From Anaerolinea thermophila (GTDB lineage Bacteria > Chloroflexota > Anaerolineae > Anaerolineales > Anaerolineaceae), in assembly GCF_020723905.1 (NCBI RefSeq), contig NZ_DYHZ01000005.1, positions 1 to 64,000 of the forward strand: DNA of 64,000 nucleotides, in the 5' to 3' direction. Shown here in pieces: positions 1 through 33,965 of this stretch. The stretch's first letter is position 1; each line of letters opens with the position of its first letter. The translations under genes were made by a program, and so were the position numbers. The notes below the pieces were generated by a model. It saw only the letters and a program-made list of their open reading frames with translations. It searched no databases and was not told the origin of the DNA.

Positions 1-634
1 GAATATTCGACCTTGCTCCTTTCTCTATTTCACCAACCATTCTTGGGACAAACACGGAGAGTCATGGGAATCGGCACTGGATATGGGACCGGCTGGTGCA
101 GGACGCAGTTATCGGCAACTTTTGCGTGCCATGCTGGTCTATAGCGAGGAAGAAGCCACAGAAATCCTTGAACAGGACGTGCTGGCACGGGTAACCTCAC
201 AGGAAGTTCAGCAAATATTCAGTGCATGGGGTGCCCCCTCTATTCAATTTCGTCCACGGCGTGCTTCGGTGCGTGATTTAAGCACCCTGTTTGAGTGTTT
301 GTACATCCGAAAGTGTATCAGCACAACCGCCAGTGAACAGATGCTGGAATGGCTATCAGAGGAAACTGCAGGCGATCAGGGCCGTTTGTGGTCCATCAAA
401 CCGTTCCTTTCTACGGGAAGCCGAATTTATAACAAACGCGGATCCATGACCATCCCGCTCACGGTAGGGGATTGCGGCATTATCGAAACCCCGGAGACTT
501 CCCCTCTGCTGATTTGTATGATTGCACAATCGCAGGGTGAACCCAATTTTGACCAACTCCATTTGAAGACAGGTGAGTTTGTCCAGCAGGTCTGGGCTCT
601 CTGGAAAGATTACCGGGAAATCAGGGACGAGTAA
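1..634 (+). CDS. Beta-lactamase-like serine hydrolase, C-terminal part (5' truncated by window)
   Basis: The frame is open from base 2, so the gene starts upstream of the window; 210 residues are visible. The pattern fits the C-terminal half of the class A beta-lactamase-like serine hydrolase fold. A helix begins SVRDLSTLFECLY, where this family has its TARDLA-type helix. A later segment reads YNKRGS and is followed by GDCGII, matching the family's K-T/S-G strand and the next strand with Asp-x-Gly. The Ser-x-x-Lys active site would lie upstream and cannot be checked. KRG in place of KTG suggests a wall or peptide hydrolase rather than a true beta-lactamase. Its 3' end overlaps the convergent LysM/M23 gene by 25 bases. 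The family call is inferred from motifs only. Confidence 0.6.
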   Translation, partial: NIRPCSFLYFTNHSWDKHGESWESALDMGPAGAGRSYRQLLRAMLVYSEEEATEILEQDVLARVTSQEVQQIFSAWGAPSIQFRPRRASVRDLSTLFECLYIRKCISTTASEQMLEWLSEETAGDQGRLWSIKPFLSTGSRIYNKRGSMTIPLTVGDCGIIETPETSPLLICMIAQSQGEPNFDQLHLKTGEFVQQVWALWKDYREIRDE

Positions 635-2148
635 TCCCCATAAATGGAGGCTTTGACAGTTTGCCCATCTTTTACCAGGGCTCCCTGATAAGGTTTTTCT
701 CCAGCAATCGCACGCCAGCCAGAGAGGATGAAAGGCATGGGACCATCAGCAAGAATCCACTCGCCGTTGTACTTTCGCGCAATGTGAACATGGGTGCCAG
801 TGGCTTGTCCGCCTTCGCAAGAGGGGTGTCCGATGCGGTCATCGGTATTCACCCAGGTGTTTGCGGGCACGCGCCCATCGGTGGCGATATGAAGGTACAG
901 AACCGCCCAGCCGGTTTGTTCAAAACCGTCTCCATCCAGATCCACCACCACAACACCGTACTCTGAACGCACAACCAGTCCGCTGGATATGGCTGTGACC
1001 CAGTCGGAAGAGACGTAGCAATCTTTTTCGGTCGTGGAAGGGGCAAAGTCCAGCGCTGCCCGGGCGCCGTCGGGTCCCCAGGCGGAATGAGGTCCGCCTG
1101 TCAAACTCCATGGTTTTCCGGGACGGAAGGGCAGTTCCATGGGCGGTTGGGTCAGTGTGGCTGGGAAGAGAGGTTCTACGGATTGGGCTCGCAGCCACGG
1201 GTTGCCAAACATTTTCTCATACAGGGCTGGCATGCTGTCTGGCCCATATACTGCCGCTGCCCAGTGGGGCTGGTCGTAGAGTTGAGAAAACAGATATAAA
1301 ATTGCCACGCTTCCTGCATTGAGGTCGGGTGCCAGCCGGATGGATGTGCCATCCTGAAAGGTCAGGGTGGTCAGGCGTCCTTCCCGCCATCCATAATATC
1401 CGATGTTTAACTGTTGTACTGCCCAGGATAATTGAGCGAACAACCCTTTTTTCTGATAATTCAAATATCCAATGGGGAAGTCTGTCTGTGCCAGGTTTGC
1501 GGGTTGACCGGTGACCCAGTGGCTCTGGTATTCGAGAATTGCCAGCAACAGGCGGGGGTTGATGGAATTATCAATCGCCACTTTATACACCGATGCCGCG
1601 CCGCTGTTCCAGCCGTTGGTGTGCCATTCCTGAATGGTGGTCAGGTAGCCGCCTGCATCCGTCACATATTGGTTAATATCAAAATCAAGCGCGGAGGGAG
1701 AGAAGACAATTTCGCTATCGGGCATCACCTTTTCAGAGGAGGTGGTTTCACCCAGCCGATGAGGAATAATGAGCAGAATTCCCGGGTCAAGTAAGCCAGT
1801 TTCTGGCAGGGTTTGTGTGGAAGTGATTTCTTCTTTGGACACATCAAAACGCGCTGCAAGCGCATTCAGTGTGTCGCCAGCCTGGGTGTAATACAGGATG
1901 GGGGGAGCGGGGGTGGGACTTTCTTTAGGGGTAGGGGTGATCTGTGGGAGTGACGTGCTGGTAGGCAGACCTGGATTTTGTTCTGCCACAGATGGTAGAG
2001 TTTCCACCAATCCAAACTGGCTCTTCTGCCCAAAACTGAAGGGAGATTGCCCGGCGCCATTCATTCCGCGCACGCACCCGCTCAGCAGGAACGTAATCAG
2101 AACTGTGGTCCAGATTCTGGTAAGATTACCGCCCAATCTGATTTTCAT
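610..2148 (-). CDS. LysM / M23 metallopeptidase lipoprotein (copy 1)
   Basis: This 512-residue predicted lipoprotein has lipobox LLSGC with the lipidated Cys at residue 25. A Pro/Thr-rich linker follows, then a LysM peptidoglycan-binding domain at about 86-130. The middle domain (about 190-320) contains LLAILEYQS, which recalls the ES-containing helix of lytic transglycosylases. The C-terminal domain resembles LasA-type M23 endopeptidases: GGPH (H354) and LDF (D367) are 13 residues apart, then YLH (H420) and GTHVH (H453, H455), the expected zinc and catalytic positions. It probably binds and cuts cell-wall peptides outside the membrane. The start overlaps the 3' end of its upstream paralogue by 23 bases, so the two are probably co-transcribed. 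Transglycosylase activity of the middle domain is a guess. Confidence 0.82.
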   Translation of the reverse strand: MKIRLGGNLTRIWTTVLITFLLSGCVRGMNGAGQSPFSFGQKSQFGLVETLPSVAEQNPGLPTSTSLPQITPTPKESPTPAPPILYYTQAGDTLNALAARFDVSKEEITSTQTLPETGLLDPGILLIIPHRLGETTSSEKVMPDSEIVFSPSALDFDINQYVTDAGGYLTTIQEWHTNGWNSGAASVYKVAIDNSINPRLLLAILEYQSHWVTGQPANLAQTDFPIGYLNYQKKGLFAQLSWAVQQLNIGYYGWREGRLTTLTFQDGTSIRLAPDLNAGSVAILYLFSQLYDQPHWAAAVYGPDSMPALYEKMFGNPWLRAQSVEPLFPATLTQPPMELPFRPGKPWSLTGGPHSAWGPDGARAALDFAPSTTEKDCYVSSDWVTAISSGLVVRSEYGVVVVDLDGDGFEQTGWAVLYLHIATDGRVPANTWVNTDDRIGHPSCEGGQATGTHVHIARKYNGEWILADGPMPFILSGWRAIAGEKPYQGALVKDGQTVKASIYGDYSSLISR

Positions 2149-3688
2149 TCAGTCGTTTATCCCACGCAGTCACGATTTGCTCGCCTTTAATCAGGCGTCC
2201 TTCATAGGGTATACCATCCCCTGTGGAAATCCACCCGCTCAGGACAAAGGGAATGGCACCATCGGCAGAAATCCATTCCCCATTATACCGGCGAGCAATG
2301 TGCAGGTGTGTCCCATTGGAGACTCCGCCTTCACAGGATGGATGCCCGATATCATCGCCGGCTTTCAGATAGCGTCCTTCGGATACCCTGCCGCTTGAAG
2401 CAATGTGATAATACAGCACGGTCCAGCCAGTTTGCTCGAATCCATCTCCGTCCAGATCCTGTACCACAGCACCATCGCCGCTTCGCACAATGACTCCATC
2501 GGCAACTGCAGTGACCCAATCAGAACTGGTATAACAGCCATACGCATCGCCCGGGGGAGCAAAGTCCAGCGCTCCCCATGCTGATCCGGTTCCAAATGCA
2601 GGGTGTGGACCGCCGGTAAAGTACCAGATGGTGCCGGGAGCAAAGGGTAAAATCATCTCCGGTTGGGTGAGGTTTTCTGGAATGAGGGGCTCAAAAGCCA
2701 GTGCTTGAGGCGATCCAAAGAGGCGCGCGTAGGTTGCATACACCCCCTGAGGACCGACGGCTTTCATCCATTCCTCTTTGCCGTATATCAAACTGAACAG
2801 GTACTGCACCCCGGCGGTTCCGGCGTTGATGCTTTCAGGAACCAGCACATAGGTTTGGTCTGCCAGTACCCATCCTTTGACTCCCCCGGCTTTCCACAGG
2901 TAATATCCATAATTCAACATGTTTGCCGCCCACCCAATCTGGTGGTACAAGCCTGTGATTTGTTCATTTCCCCGATACCCTACCGGATACTTGCGAGTTT
3001 CGGCTGGCGGAGATGGCTTAGTCACCCAGCCGCTTTGATACTCCAGTATGGCAAGTAACAGACGCGGGTTTACGGAAAAATCTCTTGAAATTTTTTCTAT
3101 CAACTCAGTCCCGGAAAAGGACTCCCCGTTGCGATCCTCATGATAGTCTTTAAGGACCCCCGGTTGATTCTCAACGAAAGTTCCCATCTTGAACGTAGTA
3201 GTAGAAGGACCAAAGACCAGTTCCGAATCAGGAATGATTATAAAATCCGGGCCTTGAGGGAAATCTTCTGCTACTGGAATGATCAGTTCCTGTCCAACGT
3301 CAATCCGGTCAGGATTGCTCAATTGATTTGCCGCAATTAACAACGCCAGGTCCACATTGAACTGGCGGGCGATATTCCCTAAAGTGTCTCCCGGTTGAAC
3401 GGTGTAGGTTTTAGGGTTGGTTTGTTCTCCGGCTGGTAACTCATTTTCTATTTCTGGGGAGGGAGTCATGGAGACAGGTTCCTGCATGACTTCAGTGGAG
3501 GTTGTCGGAGACACAGGCTGTACCGGCACATACGGGGTTGGCTGCCTTTCGGGCGTCCGGGGTATATCAAAAATCGAAGTGCTTCCCCAGGGACGCACAC
3601 AGCCCAACAGCAGTCCCGTGGCAATGACCAGGGGGATAACCCTTTTGAGGGTTCGTGAAACTTTACGGAATACGAATGTCACCCACAT
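2126..3688 (-). CDS. LysM / M23 metallopeptidase lipoprotein (copy 2)
   Basis: Paralogue of the next downstream gene with the same order: lipobox LLLGC (Cys at residue 30 from this start), Pro/Thr linker, LysM at about 94-138, a domain with LLAILEYQSGW, and a C-terminal LasA-type M23 domain. GGPH and LDF are again 13 residues apart, with YYH and GTHLH following. I chose the ATG at 3688 because it gives a compact positively charged signal peptide. The frame is open to 3799, but that longer N-terminus lies inside the preceding gene and looks unlike a signal sequence; a GTG at 3682 is also possible. The start overlaps the deacetylase gene by 26 bases. Tandem duplication with divergence is the simplest explanation of the pair. 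Confidence 0.8.
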   Translation of the reverse strand: MWVTFVFRKVSRTLKRVIPLVIATGLLLGCVRPWGSTSIFDIPRTPERQPTPYVPVQPVSPTTSTEVMQEPVSMTPSPEIENELPAGEQTNPKTYTVQPGDTLGNIARQFNVDLALLIAANQLSNPDRIDVGQELIIPVAEDFPQGPDFIIIPDSELVFGPSTTTFKMGTFVENQPGVLKDYHEDRNGESFSGTELIEKISRDFSVNPRLLLAILEYQSGWVTKPSPPAETRKYPVGYRGNEQITGLYHQIGWAANMLNYGYYLWKAGGVKGWVLADQTYVLVPESINAGTAGVQYLFSLIYGKEEWMKAVGPQGVYATYARLFGSPQALAFEPLIPENLTQPEMILPFAPGTIWYFTGGPHPAFGTGSAWGALDFAPPGDAYGCYTSSDWVTAVADGVIVRSGDGAVVQDLDGDGFEQTGWTVLYYHIASSGRVSEGRYLKAGDDIGHPSCEGGVSNGTHLHIARRYNGEWISADGAIPFVLSGWISTGDGIPYEGRLIKGEQIVTAWDKRLNENQIGR

Positions 3689-4892
3689 AAGGCTGGCACA
3701 CGATTTGATAATATTCCAGTTCCCGTTCACGGTTTTGCAATGCATATGAGCGGGCTTCTTCACCAATTTGAATGACGGTATCCAGATACAGAATCGCATC
3801 TTTGTCCCAGTAACGGGGGAGCACCATCAATGGATCCTGCACGTAACCTTCCGGAATCAGGGCAGGACGTCTGGGATCAGGTTCATCTCCCAGCGGAATC
3901 CAGTTGTACATCAGGGGCCCGCGTGGATTGACGGTGAATCCCATCTGATATCCCACTTCGCGGGCGACCTGAACAGCACGGGCGCTGAAGTTACCGCCGG
4001 GCCAGATATAAGCAATGGGGGCTTTCCCAAATGTTTCCAGGATGGCTTCCCGGGATCCTTGCAGTTCCCGATAAATGAATGTTTCCACATCCACTTTTCC
4101 GTATAAAGGCGTATCAATCATTGTGCCTGTCTGAAATTCCACAATATTAATATTGTGCACCACACCATGCGCTTGATGATCCACCCATCCTTCCTGTTGA
4201 AGAAGGATATTCTCATCTCGCACCCGGCGACTGGCTTCTGGCTCACTGATCCACGCATTGGTAACGGTCCACCCGTGAGGCTGCAGGAACGGGTAGAAGT
4301 GGTCGCGGAAATAAGAGGCGGAGTGCAGATCATCCACAATTAACACCACCGAGCGAGGGGGAATATAATCGTTCTCTTGCAAGAATCTTGCCAGTTGTTC
4401 AATGGTGATGACTTCAAAGCCTTTTTGTTCTAAAGCCTGAAAAAGGTCTTTTACCTGAGTCACGCTTATCTGGTAGGGGTGATTAATTTCTCCATCGGTA
4501 ATTGAATGAAACATAATAGGCATGACCACTGTTCCTGGCAATGATTTTCCCACCTCCCAGCGATTTTTCAAGTACTGACAGGTATCCTGAACATATGAGT
4601 GCGGAATGTCCTTCGGGTTTAGCCGAGCGCTCTGGAACATTTCCGGAAGTTCGGGGGGAACAGGGGTGTGAGTGGGAAAAGGCGTCAGAGAAGGGGTGGC
4701 TGTGAAAGTCGGTGTCGGTTCACGGATGGCATAGGTAGCAGTCAGAAGGGCATGGTCAAATGCGCTGGTTGCCTGCACATTGACCGTCACTGCCGGGGGC
4801 GACGACGATGGCGCAGAACAGGCTGCCATTCCGGCTGCCAGCACCCCCCCAAAAAACCACCATAGAAAACGCTTTACCCGTAACAACTTCAT
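3663..4892 (-). CDS. Polysaccharide deacetylase family lipoprotein
   Basis: 409 residues with lipobox AAGMAAC (Cys 25), a Pro/Thr-rich linker to about residue 80, then a NodB-like domain. Motifs include MPIMFHSI (about 124-131), VVLIVDDLH with D187 and D188 where the family has TFDD, and HGVVH for the HxxxH metal site. An extracytoplasmic deacetylase of cell-wall or surface polysaccharide is likely. It heads a three-gene run with the two LysM/M23 lipoproteins, which supports a role in wall maturation. A TACAAT box lies 10 bases before the ATG with no clear Shine-Dalgarno between, so the leader may be very short. Thr-Phe before the Asp pair is replaced by Ile-Val, a departure from the common motif. 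Confidence 0.78.
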   Translation of the reverse strand: MKLLRVKRFLWWFFGGVLAAGMAACSAPSSSPPAVTVNVQATSAFDHALLTATYAIREPTPTFTATPSLTPFPTHTPVPPELPEMFQSARLNPKDIPHSYVQDTCQYLKNRWEVGKSLPGTVVMPIMFHSITDGEINHPYQISVTQVKDLFQALEQKGFEVITIEQLARFLQENDYIPPRSVVLIVDDLHSASYFRDHFYPFLQPHGWTVTNAWISEPEASRRVRDENILLQQEGWVDHQAHGVVHNINIVEFQTGTMIDTPLYGKVDVETFIYRELQGSREAILETFGKAPIAYIWPGGNFSARAVQVAREVGYQMGFTVNPRGPLMYNWIPLGDEPDPRRPALIPEGYVQDPLMVLPRYWDKDAILYLDTVIQIGEEARSYALQNRERELEYYQIVCQPYVGDIRIP

Positions 4893-30231: not shown

Positions 30232-30259
30232 ACAAAAAAGAAACCGGGGAAACCCGGTT
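30232..30259 (-). terminator. Terminator after ndk
   Basis: Minus-strand stem AACCGGG/CCCGGTT with a four-base loop and TCTTTTTT after it, ten bases past the ndk stop. Confidence 0.8.
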
Positions 30260-30269
30260 CCTTCTCAAA

Positions 30270-30728
30270 CTATCCGTTGCTTTCAAAAATCCACCGGTCA
30301 ATCTCCCGTTCCCAGGAGACCATTTCCTCTGGTTGGAACCACAAATTAATTTCAGCCTCAGCATTCTCCAGAGAATCAGATGCATGGGTTAAGTTGCGGC
30401 TAACCGTCAGCCCAAAATCATGTCGAATGGTGCCGGGGGAGGCTTCGTAAGGGCGGGTGGCTCCCATGGTTTGCCTGACCACAGCCACCGCATTGGGACC
30501 TTCCCACACCATTGCCATCACCGGCGCTGAGGTGATGTACTGAATTAATCCCTCGTAAAAGGATTTTCCCTTATGCACGGCGTAATGCTCTTCAGCCAGG
30601 TCACGACTGACCTGTAAAAACTTGGCTCCTACGAGTTTCAGACCGCGTCTTTCCAGCCGGGAAATGACTTCACCGATCAGACCTCTCTGGACGCCATCCG
30701 GTTTCACCAATACAAATGTCCGTTCCAC
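30270..30728 (-). CDS. ndk: Nucleoside diphosphate kinase
   Basis: 152 residues, the normal size, from a GTG at 30728 with GGAGG just before it; the frame is open further upstream but that part lies in the preceding gene and is unlike the family. It transfers phosphate from NTP to NDP through a phospho-His. VERTFVLVKPDGVQRGLIGE is the N-terminal block, and the active-site His is in NLTHASDS (usually NxxHGSDS). It follows the TPR gene by 16 bases on the same strand, so the two may be co-transcribed. Confidence 0.94.
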   Translation of the reverse strand: MERTFVLVKPDGVQRGLIGEVISRLERRGLKLVGAKFLQVSRDLAEEHYAVHKGKSFYEGLIQYITSAPVMAMVWEGPNAVAVVRQTMGATRPYEASPGTIRHDFGLTVSRNLTHASDSLENAEAEINLWFQPEEMVSWEREIDRWIFESNG

Positions 30729-30744
30729 AAAACCTCCAAAGTGT

Positions 30745-33700
30745 TTAATGTAGGTATTCTTCTGCCTTGGTATAGGCTTCCAACGCTCTGGCGACTTGAT
30801 CAGCGCGGAAGTACGCGTCGCCCAATGTCTGCCAGAGGGTTGCTTCACGAGGATGAACTTTTAGAGCCTCTTCAATTTCCCAGATTAACTTTTCCAGGTC
30901 TTTGCCTTCTTGAATCAGCAAGGAATATGTATCCACTGCACTGGAGATGTTTCCTGCCTGTATCGCTGCCCATGCAGGCGAAGGCTCGCCTTCACCCGCG
31001 TACTTTACTTCTGCTGTGGGGGTAATCTCTGAAGCGGGTGTGGTTTCTTCCGGTTGCAGGGCTGGAGGCTCTTCCCGAGTGATGGTTGGCACTGGCTCGT
31101 GTTCTTCCGGAGTCACACGCAGCCAATCTGGTAAGGCTTCATCTGGCACTTCTTCAGGGTTGATTTCCAGGCTGGGCGGTTCCCAAACAGGTGGTTGCGC
31201 TTTCTGTTCTTCTTCATAAGACCGCAGCCATTCCGGAATTTCCACTTCTTCTTTTTGTTCTTCGGCTACTGGCAGTTGCGTCTCCGCTACAGGAATTTCT
31301 GGAAGTGCCTCTTCAGGTATCCATTCTGCTTCGGGTTCTTCCTTCATGGAAACCGGAGGAGTTTCTTCTGCCTCTTCCAGAGTCTCCTCTATGACACTTT
31401 CAGGGATGGGAGGAACTTCAGGACGTTCTTCTTCTGGAGTGAATAAGGTCCCTTCCTGAGCCCCTTGACGGGCAGCAAGGCTTTCCAGCCATGCAAAGGC
31501 TTCATCAGGAGACATCTCTTCCAGAGTTTTTTCTCCCTTTGCGGGTGGTATTTCCTCCCTCTCTGTTGTGATGGCAGAGGGTTGAACCTCTTCGGGGAGT
31601 TCAATCTCGGAAACCGCGGAGGATTCTGCTTCTTGTAGTTCTTCTTTGATCCAATCCGGAGGGATTTCCTGACGTTGCTCCGGTGGAGTGATGGTCAGCG
31701 TTTCCGGTTCAGCCCCCTGACGGGCGGCAAGCGCTTCCATCCATGCCAGGGCAGCATCTATATCCGAAAGATCCGGAGACTGCTCTGTTGCTTCACCCAC
31801 CGATGAAATTTCTGCTGTTTGCTCCGGAATGGTGACCTCTGCTTCACCGGCAATTAATTCAGTCCATTGTTCAGTGGGAGTTTCAGGCTCCTGGGTGGAG
31901 AGAGTGACTTTCTCTTCCGCAACCGGTTCCTCATGAATTTGTTCCTTGAGCCAGTCAGGAATTTCTTCCTTCCGTTGCTCAGGCGACGAGATGGTTAACG
32001 TTTCCTCAGGCGCACCCTGACGGGCTGCCAGGGCTTCCATCCATGCCAGTGCCGCCTCCAGATCTTCAGGCGGGGTCTCGGACAGGGAAATATCCTGCTG
32101 AGCCAGTGGAGAGGATTCTCCATGAGGTGGTGTTTCTTCTACTACAGAAGATGGAGCCTCTTCTATTGCAGCAAGCCATTCAGGTTCCTGTTCTGTCTCT
32201 TCGGAGGGTTGAGGGGTGGGGAATTCTTCACTCTCGGAGAGCCATAAGGTTGCTTCAGGTTGTTGCTCTGTTAATGGCGGAGTGGGCTCTTCACTGACCG
32301 GTGCCAGGGTTTCAAGCCATTCTGGAGAAATCTCCTCAGTCGCTGAAGGGATTCCCGGTGCTTCACTGCCTGGAAACTCTCCAGGAGTGGAAGATTTCAG
32401 CCATTCTGGCAACTCTTCTTCTTCCTTGACGTCTGCAGTTGGTGTGCTTTCCATTACTTTGAGCCAGTCTGGAAGTTCTTCTTCGCCTGTAGAAAGCGTG
32501 CTTTCAGGCAAAGTGGCTTCTGATCGCATCCAGTCAGGAATGGCTTCTGAATCAAATCCGGTTTCTTCGCTCCCTTCAGGCTTTGGGAATGGCTCTTGCG
32601 GGAACATCCACTCAGTAGATAGAAGTTCTTCCGTTCCCTCGGGCTTGACTTCTGGAGATGGTGGAGGAAGAATCTCTTCGAGCCAGTCCAGACGTTCTTC
32701 TTCGACGGGAGGTGGTTCGGGGGTTTCGCTGATCTCTTCTTCAACCGAAGGTTTTAAGGACTTCAGCCAGTCGGGAATTTCTGCTTCAACCGGTTCTGCC
32801 TCTGTCTCAAGGATCTCTTCTTCTTCAAAACCGCCGATCAAGGTGCCCTGTTCCGCCTCAAGGTTTTCACCCTCAGAAGGCATCCACCCCGCAGATTTGA
32901 GGAAATCGGGCAGGATTTCTTCCGGAGATGAAGGAGGTGTAACTGCAGGCGTTGGTGATGGAGGTGCAGACGTCTCTGCAGGCTGAGCCAGAGCATTGAG
33001 CCAGTCGGGAAGTTCCTCTTCCTGGCTGGCGGTTTCCCATTCGACCCCGATGGTTTTTGCCCAATCGGGCGCGGCTTCTTCCACCATCGAAGGTGCCCAG
33101 TCCAGATGTTCCACCATCACGGTTTGCTCGGGTACCTGATCACTGGTAGGAGCATTGGGAGAGATGAATCCCAGATACGGATCCAGTGCCAGTAAACGCT
33201 GTTTGAAGAGAGGGGCATCTCCCGCTCGACTGGTTTCGGGGAGTACTTCGACGAGGATTCGGTTGGCTTCGTAACAATAAGGGAGTTTGCTGATGAGAGA
33301 GGAGGCTACCTCTGCCGCTTCAATTTTCTGTCCTGAAAGGAAGTACATTTTTGCCAGCAGGACAAGTAAATCCAGACGGGCGCCATCCTCCGCAAGTGCA
33401 GCGCGAATTTCGGCTATGGCTTGAGGATAGAGGTTGCCGCGGTCATACATGCGTACCAGCGCCCCACGGGTCAAACGGATACGGGGAGGTTCAACTCCGT
33501 CGCGTCTTCCATACAGACGTCGCAACTCATCCTGAACGGCGCGATTAAAGGGCTGAACTTCGTATGCCCTTTCCATGTGCCAGATGGCGGCGTCCAGATT
33601 TCCTTCGTCTTCTCGGATAATGCTCATTCCAAGGTGAGCGATGAAATCATCGGGAAACACGGATAAGATGCGCTGCAGAATATCCAGAGCCTCGGTGTAT

Positions 33701-33864
33701 CGTTGACTTTCCAGGTAAGCCTTCGCCAGCAGGCGATAGGCTTCAATATACTTAGGAAACTGTTTCAGAATGTTTTTCGCGTGTGCAATGGCTTCTTCTA
33801 TCTGTCCGTGTTCGATTAAATTTTCTACTTCACGGGCGTAGGCGCGCAGAGGTATTCTCGCCAT
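30745..33864 (-). CDS. TPR protein with a long acidic PDWL-repeat region
   Basis: 1039 residues, function not recognised. Residues 1-210 hold TPR helices (for example YIEAYRLLAKAYLESQRYTE). Residues about 245-960 are Glu/Pro/Ser/Thr-rich and probably unfolded, but carry about 13 copies of a short motif, [L/I/S/P]P[D/E]W[L/I/M]K, and three copies of an AALAWMEALAARQGA-type helix. The C-terminal 70 residues form one more TPR pair with TLWQTLGDAYFRADQV. No signal peptide or membrane span. The start follows GGGAGGG. It sits between rpoD (same strand, separated by a terminator) and ndk. A scaffold that presents many identical docking motifs is a reasonable guess. Confidence 0.85.
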   Translation of the reverse strand: MARIPLRAYAREVENLIEHGQIEEAIAHAKNILKQFPKYIEAYRLLAKAYLESQRYTEALDILQRILSVFPDDFIAHLGMSIIREDEGNLDAAIWHMERAYEVQPFNRAVQDELRRLYGRRDGVEPPRIRLTRGALVRMYDRGNLYPQAIAEIRAALAEDGARLDLLVLLAKMYFLSGQKIEAAEVASSLISKLPYCYEANRILVEVLPETSRAGDAPLFKQRLLALDPYLGFISPNAPTSDQVPEQTVMVEHLDWAPSMVEEAAPDWAKTIGVEWETASQEEELPDWLNALAQPAETSAPPSPTPAVTPPSSPEEILPDFLKSAGWMPSEGENLEAEQGTLIGGFEEEEILETEAEPVEAEIPDWLKSLKPSVEEEISETPEPPPVEEERLDWLEEILPPPSPEVKPEGTEELLSTEWMFPQEPFPKPEGSEETGFDSEAIPDWMRSEATLPESTLSTGEEELPDWLKVMESTPTADVKEEEELPEWLKSSTPGEFPGSEAPGIPSATEEISPEWLETLAPVSEEPTPPLTEQQPEATLWLSESEEFPTPQPSEETEQEPEWLAAIEEAPSSVVEETPPHGESSPLAQQDISLSETPPEDLEAALAWMEALAARQGAPEETLTISSPEQRKEEIPDWLKEQIHEEPVAEEKVTLSTQEPETPTEQWTELIAGEAEVTIPEQTAEISSVGEATEQSPDLSDIDAALAWMEALAARQGAEPETLTITPPEQRQEIPPDWIKEELQEAESSAVSEIELPEEVQPSAITTEREEIPPAKGEKTLEEMSPDEAFAWLESLAARQGAQEGTLFTPEEERPEVPPIPESVIEETLEEAEETPPVSMKEEPEAEWIPEEALPEIPVAETQLPVAEEQKEEVEIPEWLRSYEEEQKAQPPVWEPPSLEINPEEVPDEALPDWLRVTPEEHEPVPTITREEPPALQPEETTPASEITPTAEVKYAGEGEPSPAWAAIQAGNISSAVDTYSLLIQEGKDLEKLIWEIEEALKVHPREATLWQTLGDAYFRADQVARALEAYTKAEEYLH
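31108..33012 (-). repeat. PDWL motif array inside the TPR gene
   Basis: Coding repeats. Thirteen motifs were counted by eye: LPDWLNAL, LPDFLKSA, IPDWLKSL, RLDWLEEI, IPDWMRSE, LPDWLKVM, LPEWLKSS, SPEWLETL, EPEWLAAI, IPDWLKEQ, PPDWIKEE, IPEWLRSY and LPDWLRVT. A longer unit, helix LAWMEALAARQGA plus about 20 residues, occurs three times, and its DNA copies near 31460, 31710 and 32010 are also alike. Spacing between motifs is irregular (about 20-90 residues). Confidence 0.85.
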
Positions 33865-33922: not shown

Positions 33923-33965
33923 TGAAAAATATTCCCCACGCCTTATTGTGCCAAAGCGTGGGGAA
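33923..33965 (-). terminator. Terminator after rpoD
   Basis: Perfect 10-base arms TTCCCCACGC (33932-33941) and GCGTGGGGAA (33956-33965), then TATTTTT on the minus strand, 19 bases past the rpoD stop. It separates rpoD from the TPR gene. Confidence 0.8.

Follow-up and report, generated by a model that had tools for sequence, protein, structure and literature searches.

Multivalent scaffolds built on arrays of short motifs are best known from eukaryotes. In the EPYC1-type linkers of the pyrenoid, short motifs recur in many copies along a disordered chain, and in the kinesin light chain system, a tetratricopeptide repeat (TPR) domain occurs together with short motifs of tryptophan and acidic residues. 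In these W-acidic motifs, the acidic residue follows the tryptophan. The C-terminal peptide of FtsZ offers a further pattern, acidic-hydrophobic-Pro-x-aromatic-Leu. Here we describe a gene of Anaerolinea thermophila that recalls each of these systems. It lies in the 64,000-nucleotide stretch analyzed here (positions 1 to 64,000 of contig NZ_DYHZ01000005.1, assembly GCF_020723905.1; hereafter, the window), and its open reading frame (ORF), taken from a mechanical ORF list, encodes a protein of 1039 aa, which we call the scaffold, with TPR domains at both ends and an acidic, predicted mostly disordered linker carrying a repeated tryptophan motif (Table 1). A second gene of the same genome, unlinked to the first and coding for a zinc-ribbon-like and probably membrane-anchored protein, carries an array of the same kind, which suggests an undescribed two-protein multivalent assembly.

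The linker (725 residues, net charge -159) contains 12 matches to P[DE]W[LIMVAF], compared with a mean of 0.246 and a maximum of 3 in 5000 shuffles of the linker. When phenylalanine is admitted (P[DE][WF][LIMVAF]), a PDFL motif is added and the count becomes 13, compared with a mean of 0.340 and a maximum of 4 in as many shuffles. Three helices of the form AW[ML]E.LAARQGA are also present, while none arose in 5000 shuffles, and 24 of the 28 tryptophans of the protein fall within residues 236-960. No DNA tandem repeats were reported, so that the likeness of the motifs lies at the protein level. A preliminary interpretation of this stretch from its letters (the sequence-only reading) had announced about 13 near-identical tryptophan motifs; the number holds as 12 plus one PDFL, but "near-identical" was too strong, as the pattern proposed with it, [LIP]P[DE]W[LIM]K, matches only five.

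The remaining layout in that reading, with three copies of a helix, an acidic linker and TPR helices on both sides, was confirmed by pattern searches, charge, Pfam and AlphaFold2. Pfam placed TPR_19, TPR_14, TPR_16, TPR_2 and TPR_9 above cut-off at the two ends, and an AlphaFold2 model based on 47 sequences shows helix pairs at each end, with residues ~1-262 and 963-1038 folded with high confidence and a predicted local distance difference test (pLDDT) value below 50 for 500 of the 1039 residues. The model assigns 10 of the 13 P[DE][WF] motifs to helices at least 4 residues long that are surrounded by disorder; a second model, of residues 1-400, is consistent with the full-length one. A fold search with the scaffold returned ordinary TPR superhelices. 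None of the named NCBIfam TPR families came above its cut-off (PrsT, 52 bits vs 312.2; MamA, 52.7 vs 200), and look-ups of the protein gave only generic TPR matches, no curated family naming it.

We then considered conservation of the array. A scaffold match at an E value of 0.001 was obtained in 58 of 61 genomes (the own genome and 60 relatives), eight of the 58 being weak only. Together with the own locus, the 40 orthologous loci fetched gave 41 proteins, 38 of which contain at least three P[DEP]W[h] motifs, one a single motif (L069) and two none (L072 and L075). In the survey of named genomes, from which L080 was excluded because a contig end cuts it, 79 scaffold proteins were read; all 64 complete ones have at least two motifs (2 to 21, median 7.5), and 51 of them have an AW helix. 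Over 819 contexts of linker tryptophans in the 41 orthologues, leucine comes next in 60% and glutamate in 3%. When 47 full-length proteins were aligned, the average share of sequences identical to the reference was 0.49 at motif residues and 0.20 elsewhere in the linker, a contrast somewhat inflated by the tendency of aligners to stack tryptophans. Some tryptophans are poorly kept, with W419, W541 and W563 identical in 4% or less. The expectation of repeated, conserved motifs within disorder was thus borne out.

Exact PDWL-type sites, listed in full, number 90 in the own genome, and only two clusters of three or more are found, one in the scaffold gene and the other in the zinc-ribbon-like gene (the zinc protein, below) on contig 13. 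The reversed pattern gave 15 sites; for a wider pattern the figures were 326 and 52, all these counts taking sites irrespective of reading frame, and beyond the 100 of these 326 sites that were listed there may be further arrays, built mainly of PEWL or PAWL. The zinc protein has two CxxC pairs at its N terminus, a zinc-ribbon Pfam match below cut-off and hydrophobic stretches near its C-terminal end; its topology, assessed by eye, is that of a probably membrane-anchored protein. In the 20 relatives read, its neighbors are alike as far as the flanks permit, and comprise a DUF6754 protein, two small hydrophobic proteins and a MutL-like protein. Up to 63 P-x-W-L copies occur in relatives from lineages where the scaffold uses another repeat, PFSLEEL (see below), and in other lineages the repeats read DVPAWLR. 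The sequence-only reading had proposed a scaffold or condensate-forming hub for a cytoplasmic partner: the features of a multivalent scaffold are indeed present, but the data do not support a single cytoplasmic partner, the motif being also arrayed in a probably membrane-bound protein. Also in the locus of the zinc gene is a repetitive low-complexity stretch (L032:10789-11797), partly masked by N and with basic repeats in several frames, which is probably a non-coding DNA repeat array.

Among 251 genomes sampled across the phylum, a profile of the N-terminal scaffold domain matches at 1e-20 in 101, relatives of the C-terminal part of the zinc protein occur in 58, and 48 have both (Fisher p 7e-14, relatedness ignored). 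For the arrays themselves, the comparison covers 37 genomes with both proteins read, which are not a random draw. The results show both arrays in 31, neither in 4, the scaffold array only in 2 and the zinc array only in 0 (exact p = 0.0002, relatedness ignored). The 37 consist of 21 genomes (17 both, 4 neither) and 16 added ones (14 both, 2 scaffold only), and in 10 of the latter the zinc-protein frame is clipped by the locus edge, making the motif counts minima. G186 was excluded because contig ends cut it, and G077 and G162, each matched twice by the scaffold search, entered the count with a single copy. In most genomes read, the arrays of the two unlinked proteins come and go together. Outside the 37 stands G021, a genome of the own family in a single contig, whose scaffold relative has the TPR ends without PDWL. 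Its N-terminal TPR domain is strongly diverged (22% identical to that of the window), and its zinc relative (L411, a weak search match) has no P-x-W-L in the 802 residues read and several RPQRKWDD-like repeats instead; both proteins of this genome have lost the tryptophan motif. Six f31 genomes and G239, all with no scaffold at 1e-20, have zinc relatives 291-318 residues long that lack both CxxC and an array (the frames of G164 and G239 are cut at a contig end), and G239 has a linkerless, 249-residue scaffold relative. The search did not find the zinc protein in G020 and G036, whose scaffolds are without PDWL (G036 is only 80% complete), nor in G032 and G050.

The window protein has the traits of its own family, namely this type of N-terminal TPR domain, the C-terminal TPR domain and ndk as neighbor. 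Farther away the linker changes. The 40 distant scaffolds read include two from the own order; PFSLEELGLS-type (PFSLEEL) repeats replace PDWL in 12 of the 40, which belong to families f35, f45, f71 and f74 and may be Chloroflexia. Many other distant scaffolds are without P-x-W-L, as are the second scaffold copies of G077 and G162 (L208 and L376), while some (from the own class, f34 and f40, the last perhaps Ktedonobacteria) have two to ten, and some distant relatives have no linker. The sequence-only reading had set orthologues with TPR ends and no PDWL motifs, or motifs varying at the tryptophan, as evidence against itself: the motif is kept within Anaerolineales, but L072, L075 and G021 have the ends without it, the 12 distant proteins have exchanged it, and one window motif has Phe for Trp. 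In 10 of the 12 PFSLEEL-type scaffolds (10 of 81 orthologues examined), the linker includes a domain like region 1.1 of sigma-70 factors, which matches the own RpoD with 37% identity over 43 residues. Pfam (PF03979) placed it above cut-off in four of six distant orthologues scanned, just below in one and found none in the sixth; the window scaffold is without it. The linkers with this embedded domain are those of L187, L188, L189, L190, L191, L192, L193, L217, L218 and L219.

Based on these results, we tentatively favor, as the likeliest of several readings and not yet a probable one, a multivalent membrane-attached assembly of scaffold and zinc protein in which the N-terminal TPR groove is the receptor. 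The N-terminal TPR superhelix and the small C-terminal TPR domain would be joined by the acidic disordered linker, which would present the P-D/E-W-L helices, and the scaffold would share one system with the unlinked, probably membrane-anchored array protein. The conserved groove of its own N-terminal domain may bind motifs both on further scaffold molecules and on the membrane protein, and we infer that many weak contacts of this kind would gather the molecules into a cluster at the membrane; NDK, encoded alongside, could be a client or regulator, as could the Roadblock protein encoded there in other lineages. With the groove register set by eye (five repeats, 25 groove positions), entropy is 0.77 in the groove vs 1.20 at other non-core positions (p = 0.011) and 0.60 in the core. 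Because of this conservation, and because in G021 the TPR domain diverged alongside the loss of the motif, the groove is a possible receptor; since the TPR domain persists without an array and the groove has little net charge, it is a preference only. Several observations weigh against this arrangement. AlphaFold2 gives no clear docking of the linker motifs (block pLDDT 50-76 in the model of residues 1-400), placing residues 236-262 with the TPR domain but not the later motifs, the mean net charge of the 25 groove positions, +0.9, does not clearly indicate an acidic ligand, and the N-terminal TPR domain also occurs in genomes with no array in either protein, so that it may have another ligand. 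The pairing of the arrays is also imperfect: in G009 and G058 the scaffold carries motifs and the zinc protein only 1-2; G113 has a clear zinc array, and among its scaffold candidates, all of them scored, none reaches orthologue strength; G019 and G023 have four WL motifs in the zinc protein, enough to pass the array threshold, with no or a weak scaffold match; a few zinc-protein motifs (two in G012, one or two in G014 and G255) occur without a scaffold match at 1e-20; in G013 and the f40 genomes G126, G173 and G181, scaffold motifs are present and the zinc protein was not found; and in the lineages of the 12 PFSLEEL-type scaffolds the zinc protein keeps P-x-W-L.

Almost as likely as the TPR groove, and itself a real possibility, is a third common partner: both arrays would bind another protein that reads P-x-W-L, the scaffold TPRs would bind other things, and the array proteins would be parallel platforms. 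This agrees with the recurrence of one kind of motif in two dissimilar settings, with its presence in one protein of genomes with no clear homologue of the other, and with an N-terminal TPR domain kept where arrays are absent. No candidate turned up, however, without a systematic proteome search for a motif receptor, and a third partner does not predict the divergence of the TPR domain where the repeat of the membrane protein changed, so that the case of G021 puts slightly more weight on the groove and less on such a partner. The most far-reaching form of the favored reading, a membrane-attached assembly specific to Chloroflexota, with two array proteins that vary together, a TPR groove that reads the tryptophan motifs and, in some lineages, an acquired region 1.1 domain that couples it to transcription, we hold unlikely. 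Quite improbable, too, is a transcription-associated scaffold working with the sigma factor or RNA polymerase. Such a role would accord with the region 1.1-like insertions, with rpoD upstream in 22 of 23 own-family and 36 of 77 named loci, and with a sigma homologue just upstream in the distant locus L221, but a terminator-like hairpin parts rpoD from the scaffold gene, a search of 18 loci from other families found no rpoD beside the scaffold (a few of them have little upstream sequence), the window protein has no region 1.1 domain, and all four insertion genomes checked retain sigma factors that align through region 1.1. About as improbable is that the linker is a spacer of low complexity with repeats that multiplied without binding anything specifically: copy numbers from 0 to 21 and the absence of the linker in some relatives would be expected, whereas motif residues far more conserved than the remaining linker, two invariant tryptophans, and the mostly joint gain and loss of arrays in two unlinked proteins would not. 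Least probable of all, in our view, is mimicry of the C-terminal peptide of FtsZ, with motifs that bind the receptors of that peptide and arrays that serve as a platform related to division. In the phylum, FtsZ tails (47 read from 50 loci) follow D-[IVL]-P-x-F-L-R, the third scaffold motif is IPDF[LM] in some orthologues, and the DVPAWLR repeats of zinc proteins in other lineages come close to this; yet the tails have Phe as the aromatic residue in 46 of 47 and Arg at +2 in 46 of 47, while the arrays have Trp, with Lys or Arg at +2 in ~27%, and neither array gene was seen to have a division gene as neighbor. The own genome has two FtsZ paralogues with DIPAF-type tails (L034 on contig 4 and L035 on contig 12), one of which adjoins, by eye, an FtsA-like gene.

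Upstream of the scaffold gene is rpoD and downstream ndk, all on the same strand, as the sequence-only reading had placed them. The likely start of ndk, by eye, is a GTG near 30728, immediately past the scaffold stop, and of the 63 named loci with sufficient sequence, 57 have ndk directly after the scaffold. Since terminator-like hairpins lie between rpoD and the scaffold gene and after ndk, scaffold and ndk likely form one transcription unit; such sites occur in the region at chance-level frequency (6 found vs 6.4 expected in shuffles). An operon that includes rpoD was set aside in view of the intervening hairpin, of a chance-frequent type but with a long stem, and of the limited conservation of this order. 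In 23 of the 40 distant loci, a Roadblock/LC7 match lies downstream of the scaffold gene on the same strand, ~900 bases off in L214 and otherwise adjoining it, in at least 19 between scaffold and ndk, and the domain was confirmed in three loci. The intervening gene is strongly conserved among several lineages (L193:8544-8912, L190:2368-2712, L195:6534-6938 and others). The own genome has a single Roadblock match, on a different contig from the scaffold, and thus no Roadblock-linked operon. Elsewhere in the window (610-3799), two adjacent ORFs encode similar LysM-like proteins, by eye an apparent tandem duplication.

Table 1. Coordinates of the scaffold gene, its parts and neighbors, and of the second array gene (window positions unless a locus is named; identities refer to the 47-protein alignment).
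Feature	Position	Strand	Evidence
Scaffold gene: N-terminal TPR, acidic linker with W-motif array, C-terminal TPR	30745..33864	-	
N-terminal TPR domain, residues 1-235	33160..33864	-	Pfam, AlphaFold2
Residues 236-262, high-confidence model beside TPR domain, strand 250-252	33079..33159	-	AlphaFold2
Acidic linker, predicted mostly disordered, residues 236-960	30985..33159	-	
Motif APDWAKTI; W268 invariant	33049..33072	-	
Motif LPDWLNA; W288 identical in 96%	32992..33012	-	
Motif PDFLKSAGW, Phe variant (orthologues: Trp or Phe); W327 identical in 96%	32884..32910	-	
Motif IPDWLKSL; W366 invariant	32755..32778	-	
Motif RLDWLEEI, without Pro; W394 identical in 91%	32671..32694	-	
Motif PDWMRSE	32518..32538	-	
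Motif PDWLKVME	32449..32472	-	
Motif PEWLKSS	32389..32409	-	
Motif PEWLETL	32305..32325	-	
Motif PEWLAA, poorly conserved (4%)	32167..32184	-	
First AALAWMEALAARQG helix; W608 identical in 94%	32014..32070	-	alignment, AlphaFold2
Motif PDWLKEQI	31936..31959	-	
Second AALAWMEALAARQG helix; W708 identical in 96%	31714..31770	-	alignment, AlphaFold2
Motif PDWIKEEL	31636..31659	-	
Third helix, AFAWLESLAARQGA	31459..31509	-	AlphaFold2
Motif PEWLRS	31219..31236	-	
Motif PDWLRV	31114..31131	-	
C-terminal TPR domain, residues 963-1038	30751..30978	-	Pfam, AlphaFold2
Terminator-like hairpin between rpoD and scaffold gene, 14-pair stem	33932..33965	-	consensus match
ndk, mechanical listing	30270..30848	-	
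Terminator-like hairpin after ndk, 14-pair stem	30235..30266	-	consensus match
Zinc-ribbon-like protein, 882 residues, LPDWL/LPPWL repeats	L032:5751-8399 (contig 13)	-	

Taken together, these results indicate that a bacterial phylum seems to maintain a scaffold of this kind, with one motif array in the cytosol and another that is probably membrane-bound, the two being mostly gained or lost together, and that the linker motif is swapped between lineages while the folded ends stay. If the proposed assembly is real, these lineages would be a natural series for testing how motif systems evolve, and the scaffold would give a first handle on the cell organization of the poorly studied Anaerolineae.

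How the scaffold relates to known systems can be stated for each of them. As the sequence-only reading had supposed, no description of a system with this layout was found in the open-licence literature, outside which most subscription journals lie; of six motif strings, LPDWL alone occurs there, in five papers whose titles concern other proteins. The ends score and fold as general TPR proteins do, without reaching a named NCBIfam family, and a domain like region 1.1 of sigma-70 factors is found in the linkers of 10 distant orthologues and not in the window protein. From the FtsZ peptide, whose pattern they share, the arrays differ in having no constant Phe and Arg and in being internal, whereas the peptide is C-terminal. 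The kinesin light chain likewise pairs a TPR domain with motifs of tryptophan and acidic residues, but the scaffold motif has its acidic residue before the tryptophan and a hydrophobic one after it, and is not of the W-acidic type. Unlike EPYC1, the scaffold has folded TPR domains at its ends, its linker is very acidic and it is accompanied by another array protein that is probably membrane-bound; no link to Rubisco was seen, none having been sought. The resemblance to the multivalent motif scaffolds of other organisms is one of analogy rather than of demonstrated membership, and with the EPYC1-type linkers the scaffold shares repeated short motifs in a disordered chain, with many copies per chain.

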